Assembly: GCA_900618425.1 (NCBI GenBank)
Contig: UZAN01040107.1
Span: 27,768 to 91,767 of the forward strand
DNA length: 64,000 bases
Direction: 5' to 3'
Source: Echinostoma caproni
Taxonomy: Eukaryota > Platyhelminthes > Trematoda > Plagiorchiida > Echinostomatidae
Below are positions 1 through 62,500 of this stretch, in pieces. Numbering within the stretch: position 1 is the stretch's first letter; every line of letters begins with the position of its first letter. A program made the translations under genes and the position numbers. A model generated the notes under the pieces. It did not search any database. It had not been told where the DNA came from and saw only the letters and a program-made list of their open reading frames with translations.

Positions 1-3000
1 TAAGGGAACGATTAGTGAATAGTCCATTCAGGTGGTAATTGGGAATAGGGGATTTCGAAAAAAGTAAAGTTAGAAAAAAGTCAGGAAATCGATTCTTTGG
101 AGGCAGAAGTTGGTTAAATAAGAATGGTGACTAGAGAACTTAGGTCTGCTTTATGTGCACAGGTGGGACGAGTGAACAGAATCAAAGTTGAAACTGTAGA
201 TGCGAGTTTTTGAAAACGGAAACCACGAAAGTACAGATAAAACCTGGCGAATGAAGTAATAGCTCGATAGCCAGCTAGTAATTCCTTGGCGAAGGTCGGT
301 GTTCGATTATCAATGTGACGAATATCCTTAGGTGGAATTTGGTCAAAGGTGGATAGAAAAGCTGACAGAGCTTTATTCCCAGTGTGGTTATTATTCATTT
401 CAGGTTCCGGACATTTGACCTTTCCACGGAACTAAGAGTTTTGAAAAGTAAATGGAAGTTGATTTACGCGCCTGCTTCAAGGGTCGTTACATGCAGGAAT
501 CATAAGAGAGAGAGAAAAAGAAAGCTTGAAAAGAACTCAGAAATGCTGGAGAGATCGATGGTTGATCCTCATTTCACCCGGATTTCTATTGGAATGATTA
601 ATAGAGATAAGCGCAACCTATGAAAATAAACATGCATGGAATAGTTGTAAAACGTTTAAAATCATATGCTTAAAACCATGCCTATATACTTATACGTAAT
701 AATGTAGGTCTTGACTATACAACACCACCTCCCTCCGTATGTCGCACGTACTACTCCTTACTAACCTAGTCTTTGACTAATGTACAGGTTGACAATTGGC
801 TAACCAACATACACTGTTGCATTCAGCCAGTGATTTTTCACTTTGTGTGACGCGCACATGACAATATTTAATGAATAGTGCACCCCGTGTGAGGAAAGCA
901 CACACGTTCCAGCAGTTAGTGACAGTGTCTTTCGGTGTGCCTATGTGCAGGCGCCAATTGAGAAGCACGAAAAGTTGGAAACGGTGAACAAGCCAGTAGA
1001 TCTGAGGTCAAAATCACGCGATAGTTCAAGGAAAACTGTCTGCATACACCGCTATATCCTATCGAACATTTTTGGAGAATTTGTCAATGTTGGTGATGTT
1101 CGGGATGTGTGCCAATTGAAAAGTTACGATAATTTCACGGAGAAAATTGGGATAATCTTGGCATGGTTTGTTTTCATAAGCAAAATTCACGCTGTGTCCT
1201 GTGGTATTAAGCGCAGGTTTTAAGAACGCGCTTGAGCTAGCGCCTAACGTGCTTCATGGTGGCTTCCAAAGATTGGTTTCGCTCTCGGTCAAACAGATGC
1301 GGTATTTTTTCCTACAATTTAAGAGATAAGTAACTACTCTTGTCAAGTGTGACGGTAAGAGATGATGCAATGGACTACTTAGAGCAGCGTCACCACAGCT
1401 GATTCATACACACGACTGCGATATTTTCGGTGCAGATGAAATAGCACTAGCGCAAATGTGCAAATCGGTGAACGATAATCTCGCTTGATTCAGCTGGTAA
1501 ACGGTGCTGAGTAAGATGTCAGATTTCCAATTGATCAACAATGGGGTTGCAATGACAAGCGCGTTAGAGCATTGACAAAATTGAACAGGTCACCGGCTAA
1601 AGCTCATCGTAGCAATTGCAACCAGGGTCATATGGTTCCAATGACTCCCCGGATGTTTCTGAGAAATGCACTTCTAGTAAAATTAATCGGGTGATTAGAT
1701 CATGACTAATAACGGGGCATTGATGTTGACCAACACTGGCCATAACGATTTTATCAATCGTTTTCATTATACATTGACAAAACAAAAATGAACGAATAAA
1801 TAGATGTCTAGTGACACTATCTTCGCATTTTCATCACAAAAATATGTGGAGATTACGCAGCGAAAAATGAGAACTTTGAAAAGTATTCAATATAATGAGT
1901 TTATCCAGTAGCGGATAGTTCTCTTGTTTTCGAGTATGTGAATACGATTGCCACCGATTCAAGCACTAAATCACGTAGTGTCCTATTTTCGTGATAACGC
2001 TATAGTCAAAACTGTTGAAGATTATGTTGGACGCGGTGCATTCAATTAGTTGATCAGCATTTCATTGCAACCGAACGGGGAAATATTAAGATTTAAAATT
2101 CGGCATTGTGATGAAATGTATTTCCTCAAGGAAAGGTAATTAGATTCCGGATGAATATGTACTCTCAGCTGAAAGTGAACTACATGTTCAGTACATTGCT
2201 TTACTGCTGAAAAGAGACTTTAAATTTTTCGGTAGATTAGGCCTATGGGAGACCAGGTGCAAATTCCGTTTTCAACAAACATTAGTCAGTGATAACTAAT
2301 GGAAACAGTGGACGAAAGTTCAGTTTTCTTCGTTTCCTTTTNGTTTGTCGAAGGCAGTTTTTCATACAACTGAAACGTATGTACTACTGACTGACGTGTT
2401 ATGCCGCAGTGGTTGGAATTCCAACACTTTTTGAATCCTCCTGGGATGCGAAACAGCAAAAAATCGACAGTATTGACAATGAGGTAGGCAGTGAAACTTA
2501 TTTCAAAAATTAACTAAAACTTACTGAATGTCTACTGTGTGAATTGACGATGAACCCGGAAGAACTGTTTATTGTGGAATTTGTTAGTACTACTAACGTT
2601 TCGCGAATCTGCCATTTGTTCATTGCACAGTGCTTTTACAGCTGAGTTTCATTAGTTGGATGAACACTCGAATTATTATTTGGTAATACCAGCAAGGACT
2701 TTTTGTCTGGAGAATGAATTTGCTAAATCCTGGAGACTGCAAAAATCAATATCCAGCGGTATTTGGCAGTGGGGGAAGCAGACAAGCCATGCTATGAACC
2801 GCAAATAAATTAGAGATAATCTGGATTTCAGTTTTGCCGAAATACGGTCAACTGCACCGCGTTAGAACCAAGTGTGTCACAATATTTGGAGCTAATCAGC
2901 TCGGTAAACCAGAGAAACATGGCGGATGTTGAAAGGAAAAATTCTTTTTCAGTGCATTAAACAACCTCTTTGTAGACACGTCCATCCATTATTCATAAAA

Positions 3001-9610: not shown

Positions 9611-11578
9611 GTATGTGACTGATCGTGAAATGAACTGAACGACGAATAAACAATAGAACGTAAGGCGATATTCCCCAAAACAAGATTGTGAACAAGCGAC
9701 TAATACCTCTGAAAGAAAAAAATGTTCACCTTAACTATATATCGCATTATTCGCTCCCCCTACACATCTAGCTTGAGAATATTGACAAATGCTTGGTTGT
9801 ATGTACTTGGACTGGTAGAAACTTTGGGTTATTCTGAAAATAAAGTAGATTTTGAAAAGTTCGCTGGATGCAGCACGAATAGACAAAAACTGGTAAAAAC
9901 AGTACCTCGAGCAAAGGGAATCGATAAGTTGAGTGACAAAATATCATCAAAAACAAATTGTGCATTTGAAAAGCATTCTCTTGGTTATCGGCGTGTGCGT
10001 TTGTAGCACACTGGTAACCGGTTAACATGTTAGAGATTATCGTACATATGAAATCAGTCACTGAATTTCGATGAAATTTGCCTCAGAACAGAGGAATTAT
10101 CAAGTGTTATATTAGGAACTATTTAGGAAATAAAAAAGCAAATTATATTATTTTAGGGAGAAAAAGATTATAATATATCAAAAGATACAAAAATAACAAG
10201 CTTTTTCAAATCGTGAATCGTTTTGATTAAACTTTTCAAAATCTCCCATAGCAACAAGAACGGCGGTTATTGGAAGATTTTGTCCGTTTTATTGAAGTAA
10301 TCTATCAGTTCATCGATTTACGACCGCAGCTTCGCAACCTGAGGTCCAAACGTGGGCAGCGTCAAGGAATTGTTTCATAACATGGCCTTTGTGCACATCA
10401 TACGGTTTTCAATTGCAGGGGTCACACAATTTTACATTCCAATACAAATTACAATTTACTTCATGCTCTCAGTATTAGTTTGGTGAAGTAATGATCGAAT
10501 TGGATGGTCGTTGCATCCGTTACCGTGGGAAAAGTAGTTAATTTGCGTTCCAACCACCATGGAGTAGACATGTTGGGACGGTTATCGACCGTTTGCTACT
10601 TAATTTAAATCACGTTGAACATCCTTTTTAAGCGATCATGGAGTGAATGTGTCTTGTCTTATCATTATAAAGGAAATCGTGCGACAGGAACGATCCGATT
10701 ACATTATTATCATCTGAAGGTAAAATGATCCGTTAGAAGAACTTCCGATGTGTTATTATAAAGTGTTAAGCAACAATATTGACTCACATTTAAACTGGAA
10801 ATCGGGTGGGTTGTTTTAAATATGGAATAAAACTGCACTTTTAAGGAAAACAGGTGATGCTTCTCAAAGACAAAACCGAGAACTGTCGAAATCATGCTCA
10901 TAATTATTAATTATCCATCGAGCCAGTTGAGATTCCCCTCCCCTCGCGGGGCAGAGTTCACAAACAGAATCCTACCCTTTTGGAACGCGGGATAACGGAT
11001 CCTACTTAAGCAATTTACAAACATCGCAATGTACATCAGAACCTATATTTCCAAAGAAACTGTAAATAACGGGAAGAATCAAAAACGAGATTCACACTTT
11101 CACATTTCCAATCACCAGACGTGAAACCATTTCGTGATTCCTCAAAATAATACTCCAGAACGGAGTGTCAATGTGGAAATCTCTATTCCGTCTCAATTAC
11201 CACATTTTATTTCTAGGTATTTGTTATGTATTCACATTTTAAAATGGTGATCGAAAATGCTTTGCAATATATAAACACAATTAGCGCTTCCTCACCTCGA
11301 TTCGCATCAACATCGATTAGATGTCATCATCACTATCCTCATCTGTGTTTTTTGCAATGAACTGTGACAAGAAGTAAATTTTGTGCCACTAGAAAAAAGA
11401 ACGGAAATATATAGTACTGAGTTAAAGTTCAGTGATAACGGGGTCTTATACTACGTTCACAATTTAGGTCAAAGCACAGCTCAGTGCACACACACTGATG
11501 ACAAAACAAGCTAATCTTCCGAAAGAGCATGTGGAAAGTAGTGTTGGGCTGAGTTTGTTGTTAAAATTATATTCAAAT
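9611..11578. other. Unassigned DNA
   Basis: AT-rich; no gene, RNA or repeat that I can support. Confidence 0.5.
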
Positions 11579-11709
11579 TGTTGTTTGACAGATTTGAAGT
11601 TTGTATGTCGATTGTGAAAGTTTCAATAGCCTCGATGGGATTCGAACCCACGCAGGGGAGGCCGCTTACGCTTTGTACGCGCACTCTTTACCAGCTGAGC
11701 TACGAGGCC
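11579..11709 (-). mobile_element. tRNA-derived SINE, family 1, copy 1
   Basis: Read on the minus strand, 11709-11627 is an 83-nt tRNA-like head followed by a body of about 48 nt. The head has a 7-bp acceptor stem (GGCCTCG with CGAGGCT), a D-arm GCTCAGCTGG that works as an A box, and a T-arm GTGGGTTCGAATCCCAT whose GGTTCGAATCC is a perfect Pol III B box. The anticodon arm folds poorly and no anticodon can be assigned with confidence. The body (CACAATCGACATACAAACTTC, then AAATCTGTCAAACAACA) is shared with the copy at 23.5 kb and partly with that at 48.1 kb. Head plus shared non-tRNA body in dispersed copies is the definition of a tRNA-derived SINE rather than a genuine tRNA gene. Confidence 0.75.
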
Positions 11710-14885: not shown

Positions 14886-15030
14886 ATTCTGTGTATAATC
14901 AGACACAAGCAAAAGACTGCCACTTCACAAGCACTGACGGTGTCACCTCGGCTGGCGATGAAACGTTTGAAAACAAATTTCCAAGCTCGGCAAACAGGCG
15001 AAATAGAATTCCGTTCGCCCGAGCTACGAG
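14886..15030 (+). mobile_element. Penelope-like element 3'-end fragment
   Basis: This block is closely similar to 62380-62500 on the plus strand and, more distantly, to the minus strand of 53697-53790. Shared landmarks are ACTGCCACTTCACAAGCACTGA, a hairpin GTCACCTCGGCTGG, GATGAAACGTTTG, CAAGCTCGGC and the end AACAGGCGAAATAGAATTC. At 53.7-54.3 kb the same sequence sits just downstream of a GIY-YIG endonuclease reading frame, so I assign it to the 3' region of a Penelope-like element. Upstream sequence is not shared, so the copy is 5'-truncated. Confidence 0.5.
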
Positions 15031-18000
15031 AACCGATTTTCAATACTTTTTCAACGTAATCCTTCGCTGTTTCTGTGGGACTGGGTATTTTTGCCGCCCA
15101 AACATGCGCTTTCCGATGGCATTCGTGAGCACATTCCGGTCTGACTAAGGACAGGAACAGTCAAGACAATTACAAGCGTGCTGTGTTCATACCTCGCTCT
15201 GGCAAACTACTGTGGATATGGTTAGCGATCGATGTGAGCAGACAAGTTCATCGATTATTGGTCACGTCCACAGCCGTTAGCTTTCGCATCAACAATCCAC
15301 CTTTGTGTGCCCAGAAGATGATGGCACATGATGGCACAGCCTCCCCTGGCCCATTTTATCTACAACAATAAGTGTTCGATCACTTGAACGTTTGGCACTA
15401 TGAATAATTTCACACGGCACAAACGCACACACCTTTGGAGCCAGGTTCGAACCATTGCAACTGAAATTTCTCATCACCTGCAGTTCTTGTTATTTGTCTT
15501 ATTCAATGTTATGTAATTACATGATTATGGATGACGAAAAGGAGCTAACACGTCATACTGTAGGTATTCGAAATAAGAAGGATGATTTGTGTCAGCAGTG
15601 GGGTGGGAAGGAGGTAAACACAACCATTAACACAGCAGTAGCAACTGCATCACGAAGAAATTTTGCAAGCAAAGTTTAGGCTTTAAACGGCTTATGCCAA
15701 TCGCTTCTGAACAGCTAAGCATTCCTAGGCTTCGAAGTTTTAGGCGGTGGCCGGATGAGAAAGGTCACCAAATTATCGCCGCGGTGGACGTGTGCTTGAA
15801 TCGTAACACCACCGCTTGGCTTCCCGTACTGTGTGCAATACATGGCAGCCTTTCAAATGAGCGATTTCCCCTTCCTGAAAATTAAATCATTATATGTTCC
15901 ATAAAAAGAAAAAAATGAAAACAAAAAATGAGAGAAAAGCTTTGAGTTTGTCAATGCGACATCCGGTAGCCAACAAAGGCAGTGCCACAGTGCTTACTGG
16001 AATTTTTCCCCTGGGAAATGCTCAGCTTTTCGGAACCCGATCATACACTCTGGTCGACAGCCGGCGTTTGAACCTTCCGACTAACCGCAAACGGCAAGTC
16101 CGAACTAGTAAGTTCATATTCCTCTGAATAACAATCCGCTTCGCGACAGGATACAGACTAATCTGTAATACGAAGCCAACGGCCAACTCGGGGAATTTTA
16201 TCGTCTATTTAAAGAACACAATATTGAAAACGGGTTTATTTACAATTTTTATGTACTTTGGCCTGGGGAAGATAGGGGTGCTATGTTTCTATGTCACGGA
16301 AGAAATTAGCCATTGTTGGGTGAAGCACGCGTCAACTCTGTTTTTCCACCAGAACCAACGTACTATCACAATTAGCTACGAACAAAATTCCAAACTAATA
16401 AATGTTCGTAGACAGCTGGTTGAGAGCATGCGAAATTGATGACCAAATTCAAGACCGTTTTTACTGTGTAACTAGTTTATTCCAATGGATCAAAGGAAAA
16501 CGGTGTTTCCGATATACATATGGTTGTAAAACCAATGTTATAGAAAGAACCCAGGCCAATAGAATGGCTATCATGCGACAGGTATGAAGAACAGCAAGTC
16601 TAGCAACGGTGCTCAGACTAGAATACAACTTCTCGGGCGATAAAATGGTGGCTTTACCGGCTACAATACCGTAGTGCGTAGGTCTAAATTTTGGAGGTAT
16701 TCACACCGAATCGGTTGGACGTTTTGGTTCAGTTGATGATTCCGGATTTCGCTTTTGTTTTCTCTCACTAAACCGTAGAGTTGAATATTTGCTTTGCTCA
16801 TATTTTTAATAGTTTAAAACTAAAGCTGAAGTACTCTATTCTTTCTTGCATTCCTACCATCACACTGAATAATGAAATAATCAAAATTCTCTCGCCGTAC
16901 AATGAAGATCATTCATAAAATAACGTATTCTGATTCCAAATACCGTTGATAACATATAGTGATCGTTCTTCCAGATTGAAAAAGCTTGCACAACCCGGCC
17001 TACCTTGGGATTTTCTGCATACCAAAGTGCTCAACTCTGTTGTTGCCCACCCATTTGGTTTCATCTTATTTTTTATTATTCTTTATTCTTCGAATGTATT
17101 CATTAAACATTAGCTTTAGAAGTCTTCGTATTCTTCCATTAAAAACTAACCTCCTCGGAATTCCCTTTAACCGGTGACATTTTTTTTAATTTCTTAGTGA
17201 CCCATGTGCCATTTTGATCCCTCAAAAATGTCGATCTTCATTTTGTCTCTACTATAGTTCCTCTTATTTCCGTCCAACCATCTTAAATCTATATTTCGAC
17301 GGGAATCTACTCCAGTCCTGAGAATATTCTCTGATTCGTTGTATATTCAATAAATAAAATAAATGAATTTGATTGATATAAATAACTCAAAGTCGTTAAA
17401 CGTCGCTCATGCTATATTCAATGCCGCAACTAGACGATTTGTTGTGCCAAGTTCACTGCTAATTATTTCGAATCAGTCACTGTCACAGGCATGCTTTTTT
17501 CCCAACGGCTCAAGGTTCGAACTCCGTTAACGTCACCCACGTTTTGGTGAACTGTCATTTTGTCATAGCCCGGCTCCCACGTAGGCCAATCTATTGGGAA
17601 CCCTGTGTTTTTCACCAATCCAAGTCCTGGAATTTTTATATACCGGTCACCGTGATTGAACAGGCGGTACTGTGACCATCGAGTTTATCCTGTCTGCTGT
17701 TCATTACACAAGGGTTTGTAATAAAAAAGCAATTGGCACATTCCGCGTGCAACAGATTGAAAGGGTACGGTGGGGAATAAGAGTATGATCAGAAAACACT
17801 GTGGTTTAGATAAAATCTAAGCACAATTTGCGTCATTAGCTGAACAGGGACTGTTCACTTTGTTTTCATTTGTATCAACAAACCGTTCTAACCTAGAAAA
17901 TGAACTCCGTCTCCGACGACAGGCAAAATTGTATGAAAAACTAATTGTAAAGATCAATCTGATTGAAAGACAAGGAACATAAATCAGTGTAAATGAAAAC

Positions 18001-21860: not shown

Positions 21861-22399
21861 TTCGAATGCTTGTTCCACACTATCCGTTCCCGTGATTTTG
21901 AATTAATTTCTACACAACGTTCCAATTCCTTTTTCAGAATTGACAACGCACAATGCATATGATTTGCTCTTCTAATCACTCGAACATGAACTGAACATAT
22001 TGAAAAGGCTATATTTATGATTTTTTGTCTTTCATTTTTTCATATTCATGGGTTTAAGTGGCTCATCGTAGGTCCAAAGATGATAGCCGTTTCAACCAAA
22101 GTTGTTTTTCTAATTTTTACATTTCTTCAATTTCTTCATTTCAAAACAGTTACTTCCAGCAAGTATTTATTGCTACCTAAACCAATTGATACGATAAATG
22201 GCTAGTGATAGCAGATAATGCAATCTGTTGACACAATGTTCTAACACTCAGACGTAAATTCGAGGTTTATAATGCACCTTAGGAGTTAGATCCCGTCCAA
22301 AGGGAAAGTGATCCGATGTGGAGGGGTGAACAAAGTTGATTAGTTTTCAATTTGAAGTGATAATCCATCGTATTCATAGCAAATGAATCGTTAAATTAA

Positions 22400-22530
22400 A
22401 AGCTAGGAAGCACGGGACAGCTGTTTCGACCTGGTTAGGTCTCATCAGCACTGTGAATCTATCGACCCAAATGGGGATTGTAGCCCGGGACTTCACTGGC
22501 AGAATGCAAGCATCCTACCCAACTAGGTTA
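22400..22530 (-). mobile_element. Hammerhead-bearing SINE, copy A
   Basis: Read on the minus strand it runs from a degraded tRNA-like head (AGTTGGGTAGGATGC as A-box region, GGGCTACAATCCCC as B-box region at 22473-22486) through GGGTCGATAGATT into a hammerhead ribozyme and ends in a T-rich tail, CTAGCTTTTAA. Order and sequence match copies at 37985-38100 and 38145-38287. The layout (Pol III head, hammerhead body, no coding capacity) is that of the schistosome Sm-alpha family; membership in the same family is inference. Confidence 0.75.
22411..22455 (-). ncRNA. Type I hammerhead ribozyme, damaged stem I
   Basis: On the minus strand: core CTGATGA (22448-22442), stem II GACC/GGTC closing a six-base loop TAACCA (22441-22428), GAA, then a minimal stem III ACA/TGT closed by GC (22424-22417), and the cleavage-site C at 22416. 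Core nucleotides are all canonical and stem II is a perfect 4-bp helix. Stem I is weak: the nucleotides next to the core pair (G with C), but two mismatches follow before an A-T and C-G pair. The fold may still form, but activity is doubtful compared with copy B. Confidence 0.6.
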
Positions 22531-23168: not shown

Positions 23169-23518
23169 GTGTCAACACTGGAAATTAAACCGGAAGAGGA
23201 ACCTAATTCAACCCCATTAAATGGACGGTATCTTGATGATACACTAGGAAATGCGCTCAACGAGACAGATATTAAGACATTATTTCGCAAGTTGAACTTC
23301 AAGATTTACTGCCCTGTGGGATGCAAGCGTGGTTCGGTGCGCACTCTATTTCACTGGGTTAGCCGACTAAGTATTCCGCAAATCTTGCCAGATGACCGAT
23401 CGACCGATTGACCCATACTTTACTAGACAACGATTATCCCATCCCATTCATTCACAAGTACAGCAAGTCGATCAATGTCAAGTCTATTTCCCTACTGGCT
23501 AAGAACAAAGAGCAAAAT
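23169..23518 (+). pseudogene. Penelope-like element, RT C-terminal part
   Basis: The translation contains GRYLDDTLGNAL, with YLDD at 23229-23240 in the position of the reverse-transcriptase catalytic YxDD, then LFRKLN and, almost at once, CKRGSVRTLFHW. In Penelope-like proteins the segment between those two blocks is normally several tens of residues, so this copy carries an internal deletion. After a stop the family pattern resumes (LLDNDYPIPFIHKYSKS), and the frame is then interrupted by a SINE at 23519. Element proteins normally copy RNA by target-primed synthesis; this copy cannot encode an active enzyme. Confidence 0.7.
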
Positions 23519-23646
23519 GTTGTTTAGTAGATTTGAAGTTTGTATGTTGATTGTGAAAAGTTCAGTAGCCTCGATGGGAGTTGAACTCACGCGTGGACGC
23601 CTCCTGTGCTCTGTTCATGTGTGCTCTACCAGCTGAGGTATGAGAG
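23519..23646 (-). mobile_element. tRNA-derived SINE, family 1, copy 2
   Basis: On the minus strand CCTCAGCTGGTAGAGC (A-box region) and GTGAGTTCAACTCCCATCGAGGC (B-box and acceptor end) form a decayed tRNA-like head, followed by the same body as at 11.6 kb (CACAATCAACATACAAACTTC and AAATCTACTAAACAACA). It is inserted antisense into the Penelope reading frame, whose conserved blocks continue on both sides. No target-site duplication is visible by eye. Confidence 0.75.
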
Positions 23647-37300: not shown

Positions 37301-37984
37301 TTAAAACTAGATGACCGCACTTTAAAACGGGACTTGCCACTTTTGTTTTTCTTTTCTGATTTGGCCAAACCATTAAAAATTTCGATAAAATTCCACTGAA
37401 GAAAGGCTGTAAGTATGATCAGACTTTTTAAGCTATCAGTCTGTTAAAATAATTACCATAACAACTAAAAATAACGAAAAGAAACTCTTGTATTTGGACA
37501 TTCAAAACAAATCCCTGAGCTAATGGAACTTCAGGCAAATTTGGTTTGTTTATAAGAAGCTGCGTTTTTCCTTGGGGCTAACCTTTCTCTAGTGACGTTT
37601 GCCAATTGAACTCATTCAGAACCTCCAGTATTTATTTATTTCATCAACAAAATAAATCATTCGACACATTTGCGTAACACGCGTAACCGAAACCTCCTTA
37701 GAGGTCCATTTTGAAGTGAATTCCGATTAATTTTTAGATTATTTCATTTTGTTTGGAAAATGAACCGCGTTCTTTGAATTATTTCCGCTCATCACCGTAC
37801 TGCTCATTTCATTACAACAACTCATCCATTTTCTACAACAATATTAAACTGCGCGTCGTAATTGACCACACTCATCGTGAAAACTTCAGTGAGTATTTGT
37901 GTAATAACATGACAGTAATTGAGGAGTTGATTCAATTTCAAAGGGGGAAATTTGTCGTGTATATATCTAACGAAGCTTGGGCTG
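34391..37984. other. Unassigned DNA
   Basis: No supported gene or RNA. A hairpin-forming stretch on the minus strand near 35250-35285 (CTGATGAG followed by ACTTC and GAAGT arms) resembles the 3' hairpins of retroelements but lacks a hammerhead GAAA. Confidence 0.5.
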
Positions 37985-38100
37985 AAAAGCTAAGAAACAC
38001 TGTTTCCACCTGGTTGGGTATCATCAGCAGCGCGAATCCATCGACCCAACTGGGGATAGAACCTGGGACCTCATGGGTGCAATGCCCTCGCAAAGATAGG
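37985..38100 (-). mobile_element. Hammerhead-bearing SINE, copy C (cleavage-dead)
   Basis: Minus-strand order is the same as in the other copies: a head with AGGTTCTATCCCC as B-box region, GGGTCGATGGATT, core CTGATGA (38027-38021), stem II TACC/GGTG, GAAA and a tail CTTAGCTTTTC. Compared with copy B about eight nucleotides following GAAACA are missing, which removes the stem III 3' strand and the cleavage-site triplet. The head is truncated upstream. It lies head to head with copy B, 44 nt away. Confidence 0.7.
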
Positions 38101-38144
38101 TTGTGCTATATCGTGTAAATTGAAAATGAAAAACGGTCTGATCA

Positions 38145-38287
38145 CCTGCTCGGTGGTCGAGTGGATGAGAAGCGTGAATTCTGCCTAAGAGGTCCCGGGT
38201 TTGACCCCCGGTCGGGTCGATAGATTAGCACTGCTGATGAGACCCAATCAGGTTGAAACAGGTGTCCAGTGTTCCCTAATTTTTTAG
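38145..38287 (+). mobile_element. Hammerhead-bearing SINE, copy B (best preserved)
   Basis: A complete short element. Its tRNA-like head has an A box TGGTCGAGTGG (38154-38164) that matches TRGYNNANNGG exactly and a T-arm CCGGG-TTTGACC-CCCGG containing a B box with one to two deviations (38198-38208). The body is a full hammerhead ribozyme (38222-38282), followed directly by a run of six T that could stop Pol III. There is no open frame. The design implies Pol III transcription and mobilisation in trans by a LINE or Penelope-type enzyme; that part is inference. Confidence 0.8.
38222..38282 (+). ncRNA. Type I hammerhead ribozyme, complete
   Basis: Self-cleaving RNA motif with every core base present. 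Stem I inner helix CACTG (38229-38233) pairs with CAGTG (38267-38271), and an outer helix AGATTAG (38222-38228) pairs with CTAATTT (38276-38282), with a TTCC bulge (38272-38275) between them on the 3' side. Core CTGATGA is 38234-38240. Stem II is GACC (38241-38244) with GGTT (38251-38254) around loop CAATCA. GAA is 38255-38257. Stem III is only ACA/TGT closed by GG (38258-38265), and the scissile C is 38266. A very short stem III with an open stem I that carries a bulge, able to dock with loop II, is the known layout of retroelement-borne hammerheads. Confidence 0.8.
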
Positions 38288-40278
38288 TTCATGCTCGATT
38301 TCTTATACATACGAAGTTCCCTGTTTGATATTTACGTAAATGATCTCATAAAACGTGATTCCATAGTGTAACATAACTTGTCCCTCTTTATCATTTATAT
38401 TCTTTACATTGAATTTATGATCGTAGAAGCAAGTCACAAAAAAGAGAAACGCGATCAATGAATGGGCTGCAATATGATTTAAAATGTTCCAATTTTTGAT
38501 GGCAATATGTGGGTCCTTTGTACCTTTCAGTCTTAGTGTATCTGATCAACGGTCAGTCACATATATTATTTCACTTAGAAGCTGCTTACCGAATATAAAG
38601 TTTCACTCCTTTGGAGAAAATTAATAGGAAAACAAATTCTCTCACATCTTGAATTTTAAGATATAATTTTCATTTAATTTGTTATTGTAACCACAGAAGA
38701 TGTGAACAGACAGGTGGAGTGCGTTCCCAATAGTAAAGCATTTAAAAAACACGTTTCAGAAGTTGCAATTTGCACGTGTTCTGCGTAACACGATTTTTCC
38801 CTACTGATTTTCTTGTTCTAGGAACAAATCCTCAGTTCGGTACTCGTCTAGTGAACTTAAAACATAAGCAGATCGTTTTCCAATAAAAATATGTAAATCA
38901 GTAAACGTAAATGTTTATGTTCTTTCTGAAATTCCTTTTGTCATATAATTTGTAATCCTCATGGCTGGATTTATTGGAAAATCTGTCAATAACATGCAGA
39001 GCAGCAAATAAATGAATAAACGTCAGCTGTTTTTTCACAAATGTATCACGCATCGCTTCTTTACAACAGCGGAATACAAACACGCAAGGTCATAGCATAA
39101 TTGAAAACGATATCAGAACATGGCTAGTGCAAAAGGAAATACAGAGAAGATTTTCTTGTCCTGTCTCAATAATACCAGTCTATCAGACCGCGTTTTATCG
39201 GTTCCATGGAAAAAGTCTATTGTGTATCCGTTTATTGCTATTATCGAATCATCATCTACTTTAGTAGTTTAATAGGAAGCACAGAAATTGAAGACGACGT
39301 TATAAACTCTCAACTGATAAAATTGAGTACAATTAAAAATAGAAATTTTGCATATTTTTCTGCTTTTCCAGGTTATATCATCGGAAAGTTTTGTATATTC
39401 GTCTGTTAAAACAGTTCATGAACCAAGAGAGGAAAATAAACCACAAACAGTAATTTTATCAATGACAGAATGAATCAGTGAAATACTGTACTGATAAATC
39501 TGGACAATCACATAATCACAGCGAATAGGAATTATCGCGTTCCTGAATCAATTAAACTACTGTGCCTCATTACTAACTGATGGATGCCTGATTTCAAAAA
39601 TTATCACCTTTTGAGTGAAATTCATTTCCACACCGGATTTTTATTTGCATATCAGTAAGATGCCCGTATTGCGTTTGATCGTAATTATCGATTGGATATC
39701 TGGATCTGGTGGTTTAAATGTATCTAACGAACGAAAAATGTGAATGCAAAATCATGAGGAAAGTTGGCATTTGATGATTCTCAGGACATACACGTCTGGC
39801 TTCGTTTTTCCGGGTGATTTTCTAGCATATGTTTGGAGAATAAACACCAGTAATGAGACTAGAGATTTGATTCCGCACACCAGGGGGGCAAATACTGTTC
39901 TATTTCTCGTTGACTGCGCGGGAGCGAGCATCCGTAAACCATTACAGATAGTGCAGTTTCTCGTGCTGATAAAAGCCAGGCTAAAATGTGCGTGGCCTAC
40001 AGTCCAACCTTCAAGACCGAAGTGGAGGGATCAAGAAAAACGGTACAATAGCGACGGGGATAGAATGCGAAAAGGTAAAAGAATGCCAGTCAATCAGCTA
40101 ACTTGTAACCCTGAAATGGGTGCCAAAAGCGCAGACTGAGTGCACAATGGAGTAAGTATGAAATGTGATAGTGCATAGATCAGTAGAGTCAAGTGCAGAA
40201 GATAAACGGGAAATAAATAATGTGGCAAATGTTTGAGTGCAATCCTTTGCACGACTGATGATACCTAGTGAACAGTTT

Positions 40279-49929: not shown

Positions 49930-50219
49930 GTACGAAAAGCAGTCAACCTCATCTTATTCCTGACCATCTAGTTTCAGAATGAAACTCGGCAACATCCAGT
50001 CTTACAGCATCTCTTTGCACTTTGAAACGACAAAGCACATGCCAAAAGGAGTGACAGAACTTGCTAATCTGTCAAGTAATCTTTGCGCATCCTCTATACA
50101 TTCGAACAGGCAAACGATTTCGTCAGCGTACTCCAAATCGCACAGCTTTTCTCCAGCTGCTCATTCAATACCTACATTTTGGAGGCCACTTAGTGTGCTC
50201 CCCAGTATTCCGTTTATGG
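49930..50219 (-). repeat. Second, diverged copy of the RT core segment
   Basis: This segment aligns with 50221-50480 in the same orientation, with scattered substitutions. It repeats the catalytic region, but the catalytic motif reads YADE (50119-50130) instead of YADD, and its frame is shifted. The two copies meet exactly at the single n at 50220, so they may be either a real tandem duplication or two different element copies joined in assembly. Confidence 0.75.
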
Positions 50220-50220
50220 N

Positions 50221-50720
50221 AAACAGTCAACTTCAGATAATTCCTGACCGTCTGGTTTCAGAACGGACCTCGGCGACACCGTCTTGTAGCATCACTTTGC
50301 ACTTTGAAGGTGCAAAGCACATGCCGGACAGAGCGACAAAACTTGCTAATCTGTCAAGTGCTCTTTGCCCACCATCCATAGATTCGAACAAGCAAACGAT
50401 GTCGTCAGCGTACTCCAAATCACAGCTTTTCTCCAGCTGCCCATTCAATACCTACATTTTGGAGACCACCAAGTACGTTCTCCAACAATTCGTCCATGAC
50501 GAACGGGAATGGTGAAAGAGGGCACCCTTGAAGAACATCACTAATAGTCGCGAACGACCTACTCAGCTTGCCGTAGACCCCTACGCTAGCAGAAATATGC
50601 GGGTGGAGTGAACTCAGTATGTTCACATACTTCTGCAGCATTCCTTTGCGAAGGAGCGAACCCATAAGGGATTCTTGGCCAACTGAGGCGAAGGCTCCTG
50701 TTAGGTCAAGGAACACGACA
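50221..50720 (-). pseudogene. RTE-like element, reverse transcriptase core
   Basis: Two overlapping frames hold the RT domain. The first (50716-50420) has FLDLTGAFASVGQESL, LLRKGMLQKYVNIL, VYGKLSRSFATISDVLQG and CPLSPFPFVMDELLE. The second (50448-50233) has EKSCDLEYADDIVCLFE, with catalytic YADD at 50401-50412, then LDRLASFVALSGMCFAPS and KCKVMLQD. One frameshift separates them. The catalytic aspartates are kept, so decay is recent relative to the CR1 relics. Confidence 0.8.
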
Positions 50721-51151
50721 ACCGTTGGTCGACGGTGCGTATGGCGTAGCTCGAGGACTTAACGCAGAGTGAAGATTTGGTCGATACAACCACGGCCTGG
50801 TCGAAATCCTGTTTGTTGTTCGCGGATGTTTGTCCCCCTAAACGGTGTTAGATGTCAAAGTATGATGGAGGCTAGTAACTTGGTGACGATTGGGATCAAA
50901 GTTAATCACGGTGGTTTGTGCAGTCGTTGTAAGATCCCTTCTTAAAAATTGGAACAATCAGTGATTCGCTCCATGATGGGGAAATGCGACCGTATATTAC
51001 GCATTAGATCAGTAATTGAGTCCACGAGGTCATCGCCTCCCAACTTGAAAAGAGTGGGAGAAAGCCCGTCAGGTCCTGCTGCTTTTCCTTTCTTCAGAGC
51101 TTGGATGCCAGATTAAAGTTCTACTACGCTAGGAGGTTCACATGACGCTTC

Positions 51152-52640: not shown

Positions 52641-53696
52641 CAAAGAGTTAAACAAAGGTTGGGATATCAGGACAGATCGAATAGCATTAGATGTGGGTAA
52701 CCGTCACTAAGTGAATGAAGTCACCATCTGATGAATGGATTAGGTAGACAACCAGCTGAACAGCCACCTATTGTCGGTATTCTTGTCGAACATTTGTTAT
52801 TTAGGTTGCAGTTACACGTAATTATTCAGAATGATGTCGTTCCTGAATTATATAAAACGTACATTTCAACTGGCATATGATCCGATACGAGAAATTTGGA
52901 AGGCACTCTAACAACGTTATAGTTTCTTATTTAAGATTCGATGAGAAAACTGACACAGCTTAGTTATATTCGAATGACAACCAAAATGTATAAAATTTGA
53001 TCACTCATGATTTCAAGCTGAGGCCAATTTGCTACGAATCGCTACCGCGTGCGGGTGACTTCATTCTGTTCCACGCGTAAACACGTCTATCACAAATAGT
53101 GTGTATCCCCAACAGGCTCATTCTGTGATCTTCTGAGGTCCATGTTTCATCTTAAACAGATTAAGCGACTAGCGATCGAATTCTCAAACAATACGAATTG
53201 CATAGACTTGAAAAAGATGTGCTAGTTGTAAATGTGGAATATTAAATCCATGGAAGTTATTTTATGCAGTTTCTCAATGTGGGAGCTATTAATTCAAGAG
53301 AACTTATCTCCAGCACCTTTTATTGAACGCCTTTTCTCCGGCACTTACGTTTTAAGAAAGAGAGCACGTATGCTTTTCATTAGGTTGTATTCATCCTCCT
53401 GGCTGAGTTGTGAGACGGAATTTTTGTAAGTTGCCGGCTCCGCAATTACTGTGTAACAAGCACGGTCTTGGATGCGGAATCATGAGAACATTAGACGGAC
53501 GTTAGCCCGTCGAAATCCGTCTTCAAAATGTTCCGAGAAATCAACACCACCTTGAAATACGGTAAGAATTTCTGCTGATTTGCCCTAAGATGTGACCAGC
53601 AATCTAATTAAATCCTCGCCTTGGTGAACGATTCCACTAAGCCAAAAAAGTGAAACAGACCTTGACAACGCATTGGTAATCGGTTCTGGTAAAACG
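52641..53696. other. Unassigned DNA
   Basis: No supported feature between the RTE-like and Penelope-like elements. Confidence 0.5.
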
Positions 53697-54320
53697 GTTG
53701 AATTGAATTCTATTTCACCTGTTCGTCGAGCTGGGCAATTTGCCTACAATCTTTTCTTCACCATCCAAGTTGACAGCGTCCGTGCTTCTGAATTTGCAGT
53801 GTTCCGCTTGTACTCGTTCGCTAATACATGCCTTCTTCTCCACCGATTGGTTTTCCGTTGTTCTCAGTCTATTCGACTCGGTATGCCGTTGATCTGGTGC
53901 TAGGGGTAATGGTGGTGTTGGTAGGTGGTATTCCGTCTTGGCAGTCGTTTTTATCCGTTCTCAGGTCATTACAATACCTATATTTACGTCATGTGGTCCT
54001 TGAGTTGCATTGGCGTGTACACATGATCCAGTTTATCCTGTTTATTCAGTTGATGGAACAGTGTCAAGCCTCGAAAATTCTCTGGCTTGTTTTGGCCGGG
54101 CTTGATAGATGAGTTTCCCGACCCCAAAGTCGAACTGATGTTCTCCTTGATATTCGTAGAGGAAAGTCAACGATAGTAGGTCATGCCTCTTGACTGTTAA
54201 TTGATATTCACGGATCTTTATTGATAATTTTCCTCCAGTTTGTCCGATATAGTGTTTTGGGCAGTTCTTGTAGCCAGGCGATGGTAGGATTCCAACACAC
54301 GTCATCCGGGCTATCGACAA
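53697..54320 (-). mobile_element. Penelope-like element, GIY-YIG domain plus 3' region
   Basis: On the minus strand the endonuclease reads GYKNCPKHYIGQTGGKLSIK, EYQLTVKRHDLLSLTF, EYQGEHQFDFGVGKLIYQ and ARPKQAREFSRLDTVPSTE. CPKHYIGQTG is the GIY-YIG family core; after a frameshift near 54060 NKQDKLDHVYTPMQLKD matches the conserved end (NRHIDLDPVY). Downstream, 53905-53697 is the non-coding tail shared with 14.9 and 62.4 kb, ending AACAGGTGAAATAGAATTC. RT is absent, so this is a 5'-truncated copy. It ties the dispersed tail sequence to the Penelope class. Confidence 0.7.
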
Positions 54321-59429: not shown

Positions 59430-60945
59430 CCTGTCGATTCGAGCCCACTGTCCCTCCTCTATGATGTGACGTTCTATCAGATCTAATCATTATCCCTCTT
59501 CACTTTTTTGAAAAGCGAAAATATTACCCATTCTTGTACAGTTCGACCTAGGTTTTGTACGCCGTTGTGTACCTCCTTTGTTCTGGAATATAATCTAATG
59601 CCCCAAAGTCTTCATCCAAACCACCTGGCATCCAACGAGACACTCAAGTTGTTAAATTTTTTTCTTCCAATGGAATAACGCAAACCATATCTGCGGTACT
59701 CACTAACTTTCTCACAAATCGATTACAGTTCTCACATTACTTGGTCGTTCCTCCTCTTTATTCATTTTTACACTAGGCATATTACAGGGTGCCAGTCTAT
59801 CCCCGTTTTTCTTCTACATTCATATTTCATGTATGCCTACTTTTAAAAATTCCCTGCTCATTAAATATGCGGACGATGTTGTGGTCGGAATTACCCACCC
59901 TGATGCATCTGTCACCCCCACCCTCCAATTTGACTTGGCTAACATTGCTGAGTGGTCCACTGAGCATAACTTAACTCTCAATCGCTCTAAATGCGTAGAC
60001 ATGCTTTTCTCATTTCACAGAGGGAATGGTTATTCTAATCTCCTGGACTGCTGTCCAACACTGAACACACGCAATGATACTATTATCCACAGGTATCCAC
60101 CAGGTATCTTGGTGTGTTAATAAGTCGAAATTTATGCTGGTCTGACCAAGTTATTTCTGTATTTGTAAAGGTTAGGAAATTATTGATAAGTTTCACAATA
60201 TAAGATCCAAATCTGGAACGGATGTTATTGAAGTAATTTTGCGTCATGCTCATAGTATTAGATCCGTGAAGGAAACCGTCTGGATTAGCTATGACGTAAA
60301 CTTATTTTTGGTTAGGAGATTATCTTTTTATATATCTCTTCTCAAAGTACCATCAGTCCCTCGCATCTTGAATAAACGTCTTCTCTTGGCTTGTTTTTTG
60401 GCCCTATGGTTTTACGGGTCCCTTATGATCTTTCCAAGGATACTTAAGAAGGACTTTAAATTGCTTTCGAAGTCCTTAACACTTTTATTTAGAAGTATTG
60501 GGATTTCGATTGAAACTCTCAATCACTTTATCATTTCACAGCATGGAACAAAGTCGTGCTTTTCGCTCTCAACAAAAAGTACTGGCAACCCTTCACATCC
60601 AATACATCAAGATCTTATCATATGTGTCCTCCCCTTCCACCCGGTCCCTATAACTGTATATTTGCTCGTACGACCGCCTATCGGTCTTCTGTGGTACCTT
60701 ATCTAGCCCGATTTCTTGTCAGCCCAAAACGCATCCTTTCAGAACTTTACCCACTCATATCTTGAAATGTTTTCTTTTCTCCTTGCTTACCCCAATTGTG
60801 CTATAATTTTGTTTCATAATTGTTGGTTGACTATGTGGATGCTGAATAACCACCACCACCTTTCAGGGTGTTTAAAATGCATACTTCACTTGACTTGACA
60901 ATATAGTAATGTAAGGTTTAATAATAATGATGATAATGAACATTA
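59430..60945 (+). pseudogene. CR1-like LINE, RT domain to 3' end
   Basis: Plus-strand relic with RT blocks LTNFLTNRLQFSHY, GILQGASLSPFFFYIH, LLIKYADDVVVGITHPDA (catalytic YADD at 59866-59877), EWSTEHNLTLNRSKCVDMLF, then in later frames LNKRLLLACFLALWFYGS, RILKKDFKLLSKSLTLLFRS, ISQHGTKSCF, HPIHQDL and RTTAYRSSVVPYLARFLV. The order is that of CR1/jockey-type proteins from the palm to the C-terminus. Several frameshifts separate the parts. It ends in a simple tail of TAA/TGA units at 60918-60939. It is inserted opposite in direction to candidate gene X. Confidence 0.8.
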
Positions 60946-62150: not shown

Positions 62151-62500
62151 GAACTGAATTCCATTTCGCCTGTTCGCAACTGAAGGACCAAATGACGCAA
62201 CGAAGTTCACGCCGTGACCTGAGAACGGACGGAAACCGCAATCGGGACGAAAGGATAACTTCCTCCCCTCCCACCCCCACCCGCTCGCAGCAGTTCAACG
62301 GCGGACCGAGTCGAACACAGTGAGAACAGGGGACGAAAATAGCCGGTGGAGAACAACGCATATATAAACGAACGGGTACAGACAGAACACTGCCACTTCA
62401 CAAGCACTGATGATGTCACCTCGGCTGGTGATGAAACGTTTGCGAACAAATTGCCAAGCTCGGCGAACAGCCGAAATGAAGTAAACAACTCCATTGTGCA
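62151..62500 (+). mobile_element. Penelope-like 3' region with an inverted end fragment
   Basis: From about 62178 to 62500 the plus strand carries the tail sequence seen at 14.9 and 53.7 kb (GGACCGAGTCGAACACAG, CGGTGGAGAACAACGCATAT, CACTTCACAAGCACTGATG, GATGAAACGTTTGCGAAC, CAAGCTCGGCGAACAGCC). At its left edge, 62151-62176 is the reverse complement of the element's own terminal sequence (CGAACAGGCGAAATGGAATTC). Such inverted end fragments are a known feature of Penelope-like insertions. No endonuclease or RT part is present. Confidence 0.55.
62265..62282 (-). other. Potential G-quadruplex on minus strand
   Basis: CCCC, CCC, CCCCC and CCC separated by single T or A (62265-62282), a very compact four-run motif within the Penelope 3' region. 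Confidence 0.6.

Follow-up and report, generated by a model that had tools for sequence, protein, structure and literature searches.

Hammerhead-carrying tRNA-derived SINE copies in Echinostoma caproni and their probable insertion by Penelope-type machinery

Results

Structure of the insertion in the window

The window, by which we mean the whole stretch of 64,000 nucleotides of the trematode Echinostoma caproni (contig UZAN01040107.1) that was analysed, harbors a composite insertion at 37908..38328, the right end being placed by eye. It consists of two diverged copies of one repeat lying head to head, with 9 nt between their 5′ ends. Positions within the repeat refer to a 363-nt reference unit derived from locus L008 and counted from the ribozyme cleavage site. 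Arm A (38087..38328, plus strand) extends from unit 184 onward via a tRNA head and a hammerhead to about unit 65 and shows about 80% identity to the L008 unit. Its right end at about 38328 was set by eye at ...TTTGA, local alignments stopping at 38341 and 38349. Arm B (37908..38077, minus strand) is a second copy in which the cleavage site is deleted and which ends near unit 93-97.

The original prediction described a single element of about 143 nt with a terminal T run as its end; this element is one arm of the pair, with the partner arm running from 38077 to 37908 on the minus strand. Homology on the plus arm spans 38087 to about 38328 and the family unit comprises 363 bp, and thus the predicted 143 nt make up the head and ribozyme portion of a longer unit. 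The T run, a T6 at 38280..38285 (plus strand), is not the element end, as the family continues beyond it and the reference unit has TTTT there, the only such run that it carries (unit 15-18). Among 29 distinct aligned copies, T6 is unique to the window copy and T5 occurs in one (L032).

A covariance search of the window against 4,227 Rfam families identified a type I hammerhead ribozyme at 38228..38272 on the plus strand (RF00163, 36.7 bits with a cut-off of 34, E 1.4e-5). All core bases are in place, namely CTGATGA at 38234-38240, GAAA at 38255-38258 and GTC ending at 38266, and stems I and II as well as a minimal stem III are present, as had been proposed. By score and core bases the motif is a member of RF00163, and self-cleavage is predicted after 38266, in agreement between the core layout and the earlier placement. 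For the claimed two-helix stem I, the outer helix (TTAG/CTAA) fits the window copy but is not the usual sequence of the family. Folding energy was dropped as support for the hammerhead. The z-scores of the region are near zero (-0.31 and 0.25), and the hammerhead pairing is worse than the best fold (-4.1 versus -12.6 kcal/mol) under free-energy parameters that do not model the ribozyme core. Separately, a GGGTC located 5′ of the hammerhead is able to form a helix with GACCC in stem II, both in the window (38214-38245) and in family loci, and this rival helix is favoured by folding; the GGGTC/GACCC stretch is mostly kept across the 29 distinct copies.

The ribozyme is preceded by a decayed head derived from tRNA-Gln at 38146..38220 (plus strand), corresponding to unit 243-317. 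Alignment to the family unit leaves a gap of 7 nt between head and hammerhead. The position of the head was set via the L008 unit, in which ARAGORN calls a tRNA-Gln with anticodon ctg; in the window copy at 38145..38287, ARAGORN called no tRNA. The head contains the exact A box announced earlier (TGGTCGAGTGG, 38154-38164). The announced B box is B-box-like, since GGTTTGACCCC at 38198-38208 differs by one base from GGTTCGANNCC, which we take to be the B-box consensus, the A box being named by an assumed consensus as well.

An exact-match test found no target duplication around the window insertion. A possible decayed duplication is formed by TATTTGTGTAAT at 37894..37907 (plus strand) and a right partner TATTTACGTAAAT beginning at 38327, a pair whose score was matched by 97 of 5,000 random pairs.

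A third copy of the family is located at 22346..22521 on the minus strand, running from unit 259 to about unit 65-70. Its hammerhead is decayed, with mismatches in stem I and an Rfam score of 32.9 bits, under the cut-off.

The window also contains other repeats. A tRNA-like repeat lacking a hammerhead lies at 11627-11709 (minus strand; tRNA-Cys according to ARAGORN), and stretches at 11574-11663 and 23513-23601 are 84% identical. Further tRNA-like repeats of this kind occur in family locus L026 at 201-282 (minus) and 506-587 (plus), both called as tRNA-Phe; such repeats perhaps represent another tRNA-derived SINE. A near-tandem duplication of about 250 bp (49936-50189 and 50221-50469) is 84.6% identical, and another interspersed repeat is present in three copies (14905-15057, 53659-53907 and 62279-62480) of about 76-89% identity. 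Ten frames of the window compared with Pfam yielded two fragments of reverse transcriptase (RT) of the non-LTR type, one of them over the cut-off: 59707-60117 on the plus strand (RVT_1, 34.7 bits) and 50423-50758 on the minus strand (RVT_1, 23.8 bits, under the cut-off). A protein search with an RT fragment yielded 7 candidates, of which none reached significance.

A family with a 363-bp unit

In the home assembly of E. caproni (426.5 Mb, 12,689 contigs), the query 38100-38330 gave 43 scored matches from 3,007 first-look candidates. A search of this assembly for COX1 found no match. Thirty-six loci (8 + 28) were read, which as best matches to one query form a biased sample. A search with a 43-nt hammerhead pattern, allowing at most 3 mismatches, detected 1,671 family hammerheads in the assembly (806 + 865) and none with the reversed pattern as control; viral and prokaryote contigs held no exact-pattern relatives. 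The Rfam scan covered 28 of the 36 loci, L029-L036 being left out, and RF00163 was above the cut-off in all 28. Of the 41 hammerhead hits in these loci, 6 reached 54.2 bits and 25 reached 49.9 bits. A head called as tRNA-Gln(ctg) by ARAGORN was found in 20 of the 36 loci (4/8 + 16/28).

The dispersed copies with the head-ribozyme order that a SINE family would have are thus present. They also bear on the idea of a chance hammerhead-like motif next to a tRNA pseudogene, which might appeal to the closeness of the window score to its cut-off (36.7 versus 34) but would have to accommodate 1,671 relatives with the motif, a control of 0, and better-scoring relatives in the same arrangement. We rejected it on the Rfam score, the family loci and the pattern matches, and consider it wholly improbable.

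In locus L008, where the tRNA lies at 1547-1621 and the ribozyme at 1629-1673, direct repeats are spaced by 363 bp, and L009 is a partial dimer with the same period. The unit comprises 363 nt from the cleavage site: a body (1-242), the tRNA-Gln head (243-317) and a hammerhead formed by 325-363 together with 1-6 of the next unit. Tandem copies with at least two hammerheads on the same strand occur in L009, L025, L026 and L028. They are compatible with the suggestion in the original prediction that self-cleavage would trim tandem transcripts to single units. Identity to the reference unit reaches 99-100% in several copies, which suggests recent activity of the family; the window arms are older, being about 80% identical to it. 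The family alignment (54 rows, 29 of them distinct, with the window copies counted twice through L001 and rows not within 8 nt of both ends left out) holds too little variation for a covariation analysis. Pairs are mostly kept, and one C-G to U-A change was seen in stem II of L022.

The family combines the features of a tRNA-derived SINE: a tRNA-like head, A and B boxes, short length, absence of coding capacity, dispersal and target duplications. The head derived from tRNA-Gln presumably serves as an internal Pol III promoter. The unit carries no open reading frame for an RT or a GIY-YIG endonuclease, the longest frame seen having about 80 codons, and therefore is not itself a Penelope-like element (PLE). 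This frame, read in the L008-derived unit, begins in the hammerhead region and stays open up to about unit 211, shortly ahead of the tRNA head. The CTGATGA core contains an ATG, and the frame could be due to chance or a relic of the start of a Penelope ORF.

The unit may also be read as a retrozyme in the sense of PMC7229834, with a unit-length circular RNA as intermediate, transcription by read-through and the tRNA-like head as a promoterless relic. Tandem copies agree with this, as does a unit of 363 nt within the reported circRNA range of 170-400 nt, but in 20 of 36 loci ARAGORN can still call an intact tRNA-Gln fold, and we rate this reading as quite unlikely. PMC7229834 names PLEs as a strong candidate helper, and the retrozyme reading is compatible, as to the mover, with the Penelope-type insertion proposed below.

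Ends, orientation and target duplications of the copies

Only pieces with 75% identity or more entered the counts of ends and insertions, which gave 52 pieces in 38 insertions; the weaker pieces in L005 and L021 were left out. Two 3′ end sites are favoured: 20 of the 52 ends fall at unit 64-71 (mostly ...TTTGA/AA) and another 20 at unit 90-102 (mostly ...CATGA/AA). The two sites, 65 and 96-97 nt past the cut and about 31 nt apart, hence account for 40 of 52 ends. Of the 12 placed elsewhere, three are not true ends: the L006 plus piece runs into the end of its contig, the L017 minus piece meets a gap, and a piece of L028 breaks off at an internal N. Two more belong to the diverged arms of the window insertion.

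The minus-then-plus order, i.e. head to head, holds for each of the 13 multi-piece insertions in which both strands occur, and the reverse order for none. The same holds for all seven opposite-strand pairs within 2 kb among the pattern matches listed (C451, C520, C2048, C2477, C4853, C5508 and C6298), some of which overlap loci already counted. In adjacent pairs with both ends classed, the two arms end at different sites in eight of eight cases (L002, L014, L018, L019, L020, L022, L031 and L036); the pairs in L032 and L035 do not fit the two-site pattern, and those in L001, L006 and L017 are not classable for end sites. Two pairs split by N (L008 and L010) agree with unlike ends by alignment, the L008 minus arm, judged by its duplication, lying nearer to unit 57 and some 8 nt short of site 65. 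In the window, Arm A ends near site 65 and Arm B near site 97, and the window insertion fits the two-site head-to-head pattern.

Target duplications of at least 9 bp flank 11 of 38 insertions, corresponding to 11 of the 26 with clean flanks, compared with 12 of 3,380 random pairs; in the other 15 of 26, no exact match of this length was detected. Duplications of 11-12 bp enclose five adjacent head-to-head pairs (L002, L018, L019, L020 and L031), and 12-bp duplications enclose the N-split pairs L008 and L010, giving seven enclosed pairs in all. Since one duplication encloses both arms, a head-to-head pair was inserted as one event. The bases directly after the end are AAT in 8 of 18 cases at site 65 and in 6 of 16 at site 97, one of the latter (L036) being a misplaced match. 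Both start sites read TGAAA, and therefore base pairing with the target could play a part.

Copies of a single orientation that are flanked by a duplication often start near either site too, as seen in L011 (95 to 68), L027 (95 to 64), L007 (59 to 96) and L034 (88 to 99), while L009 (178 to 97) and L013 (27 to 97) are off that pattern. Those on the pattern look as if cDNA synthesis had halted where a second start site was occupied.

LINEs give duplications and inversions, and LINE-type RT fragments are present in the window (RVT_1, 34.7 and 23.8 bits). An explanation by LINE-driven movement of an ordinary tRNA SINE, with twin priming causing the head-to-head order and the ribozyme as a passenger or RNA trimmer, would draw on both points. 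This account is nevertheless unlikely, as it meets two fixed 3′ end sites that are unlike within pairs, a second arm that starts at a favoured site and not anywhere, tandem units, and insertion flanks that, where inspected, showed no poly(A) or simple-repeat tail.

Candidate Penelope-type sequences in the genome

Searching the home genome for GIY-YIG produced 188 candidates, of which 150 were scored and 31 matched at E<=0.01. The domain is not specific to PLEs and was also matched in 12 of 14 prokaryote controls. In one locus at a contig end, L037, a single frame joins an RT piece carrying YVDD to a GIY-YIG domain after it, with marginal Pfam scores (22.8 versus a cut-off of 22.6 for GIY-YIG; 21.4 versus 29.6 for RVT_1). 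On this sequence, the genome appears to hold at least one RT/GIY-YIG sequence of the PLE type. A comparison of the unit with L037 gave chance-level matches only. L037 was the one such locus read; the part read includes no PLE 5′ end, and it showed no complete PLE with sequence in common with the unit. No PLE fragments were found by tblastn in the 36 loci and the window, and a PDB search with the PLE piece of L037 gave one irrelevant match (E 0.16).

Discussion

A model of Penelope-type insertion

The insertions described here show two 3′ end sites about 31 nt apart, a tail on one of the head-to-head arms and a short enclosing duplication, and thereby match the PLE signature (sites 30-40 bp apart) taken from the excerpts of PMC11167929 and PMC3846280. 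Spacing, unlike ends of paired arms, orientation and duplication agree specifically, and this agreement is good evidence, drawn from the genome sequence, that Penelope-type machinery inserted the copies. We therefore consider it probable that an Sm-alpha-like SINE family is moved by a PLE and, as part of this explanation as a whole, that the window insertion is a decayed member of a large family of non-autonomous retroelements, some of whose copies are young.

According to this model, RNA that is one or several units long, and that may be a circle resulting from cleavage and ligation, would be taken by a PLE protein, which would cut both target strands. From each of the two target 3′ ends, reverse transcription would then begin at an internal position of the RNA, at 65 nt and at 96-97 nt downstream of the ribozyme cut. 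Where the two cDNAs meet 5′ to 5′, a head-to-head pair within one short duplication would result; where all cDNA comes from one strand, a single-orientation copy would be formed. The use of one site per strand is our reading of the paired ends; in the excerpts of PMC11167929, no start-site difference between strands was seen, and the start was not homologous to the cut DNA.

Beyond the question of the mover, we see arguments evenly divided on whether these copies represent a SINE class parasitising PLEs, composed of a tRNA promoter, a hammerhead and an internal region for the PLE-type start of reverse transcription. In such a parasite, the PLE module from ribozyme to start site may, with equal chance for and against, have been kept and the gene replaced by a Pol III promoter.

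Comparison with known systems

The core observation of the original prediction is real and its extent was misjudged, and its assignment to an Sm-alpha-like family is fair but incomplete. The label is reasonable because of the type I hammerhead with very short stem III, the head of the tRNA-Gln type and a unit of 363 bp compared with 335 bp; the unit of 143 nt ended by a terminator is not supported. The kinship was set by shared architecture and published descriptions, not by alignment. Within the excerpts consulted, tRNA-Gln-TTG-like genes of S. mansoni are reported as Sm-alpha-like SINEs (PMC2770079), and the Sm-alpha-like W36.2_W001 has 335 bp (PMC8490949). According to these descriptions, Sm-alpha and Sj-alpha of schistosomes share with the E. 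caproni family a tRNA-related head (of the tRNA-Gln type for S. mansoni), a high copy number, a type I hammerhead with a very short stem III and a unit of about 335-363 bp. In contrast to Sm-alpha, the called heads here have the anticodon ctg and not TTG, and the hammerhead stems depart from the Rfam consensus. For Sm-alpha or Sj-alpha, the excerpts of PMC2770079 and PMC8490949 do not mention paired insertions that use two end sites, as described here.

For metazoan non-LTR retrozymes, the excerpts of PMC7229834 and PMC7761336 mention no tRNA head, whereas a clear tRNA-Gln head is present here. Retrozyme repeats are reported to lack a conserved motif revealing the helper (PMC7761336). PLEs are regarded as a strong candidate helper of animal hammerhead retroelements, since the two have type I hammerheads and tandem copies in common and are found together (PMC7229834). 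The retrozyme helper is given as unknown in these sources, whereas an insertion footprint is visible in the family described here. This footprint is a direct sequence test of the idea that PLEs move animal hammerhead retroelements; it can be applied wherever a genome carries elements of this kind, and it gives two exact positions at which priming is predicted. If true and general, Sm-alpha-type elements and animal retrozymes would depend on PLEs, and the tail signature would reveal this dependence from genome sequence alone.

For PLEs, the excerpts of PMC3846280 describe a 31-bp tail on one inverted repeat, duplications of 8-10 bp and repeats that are mostly head to head, explained by self-priming, with some insertions lacking duplications. 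In vitro, a PLE protein cuts and extends both strands with a preference for ATT, and reverse transcription starts internally at two adjacent sites whose spacing equals the tail, hammerhead activity being dispensable (PMC11167929). In the same source, the hammerhead cut of the Anolis element PAc falls after 26 nt of the ORF, and the main start of reverse transcription is found at 111-118 nt. The start thus follows the cut by about 85-92 nt in PAc and by 65 and 96-97 nt in the E. caproni family. Like the hammerhead-carrying PLEs so described, the family shows a ribozyme cut followed by two starts of reverse transcription, a tail of about 31 bp, a head-to-head partner, short duplications and tandem units. 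Unlike PLEs, it carries a tRNA head instead of RT or endonuclease coding, and its hammerhead is a full Rfam type I motif whereas that of PLEs is described as a minimal variant. In the one literature collection searched, as far as its texts were accessible, no hammerhead SINE was found to be described with the tail signature. The architecture of a hammerhead SINE itself resembles the known Sm-alpha, and the insertion mode of the copies is the new result.
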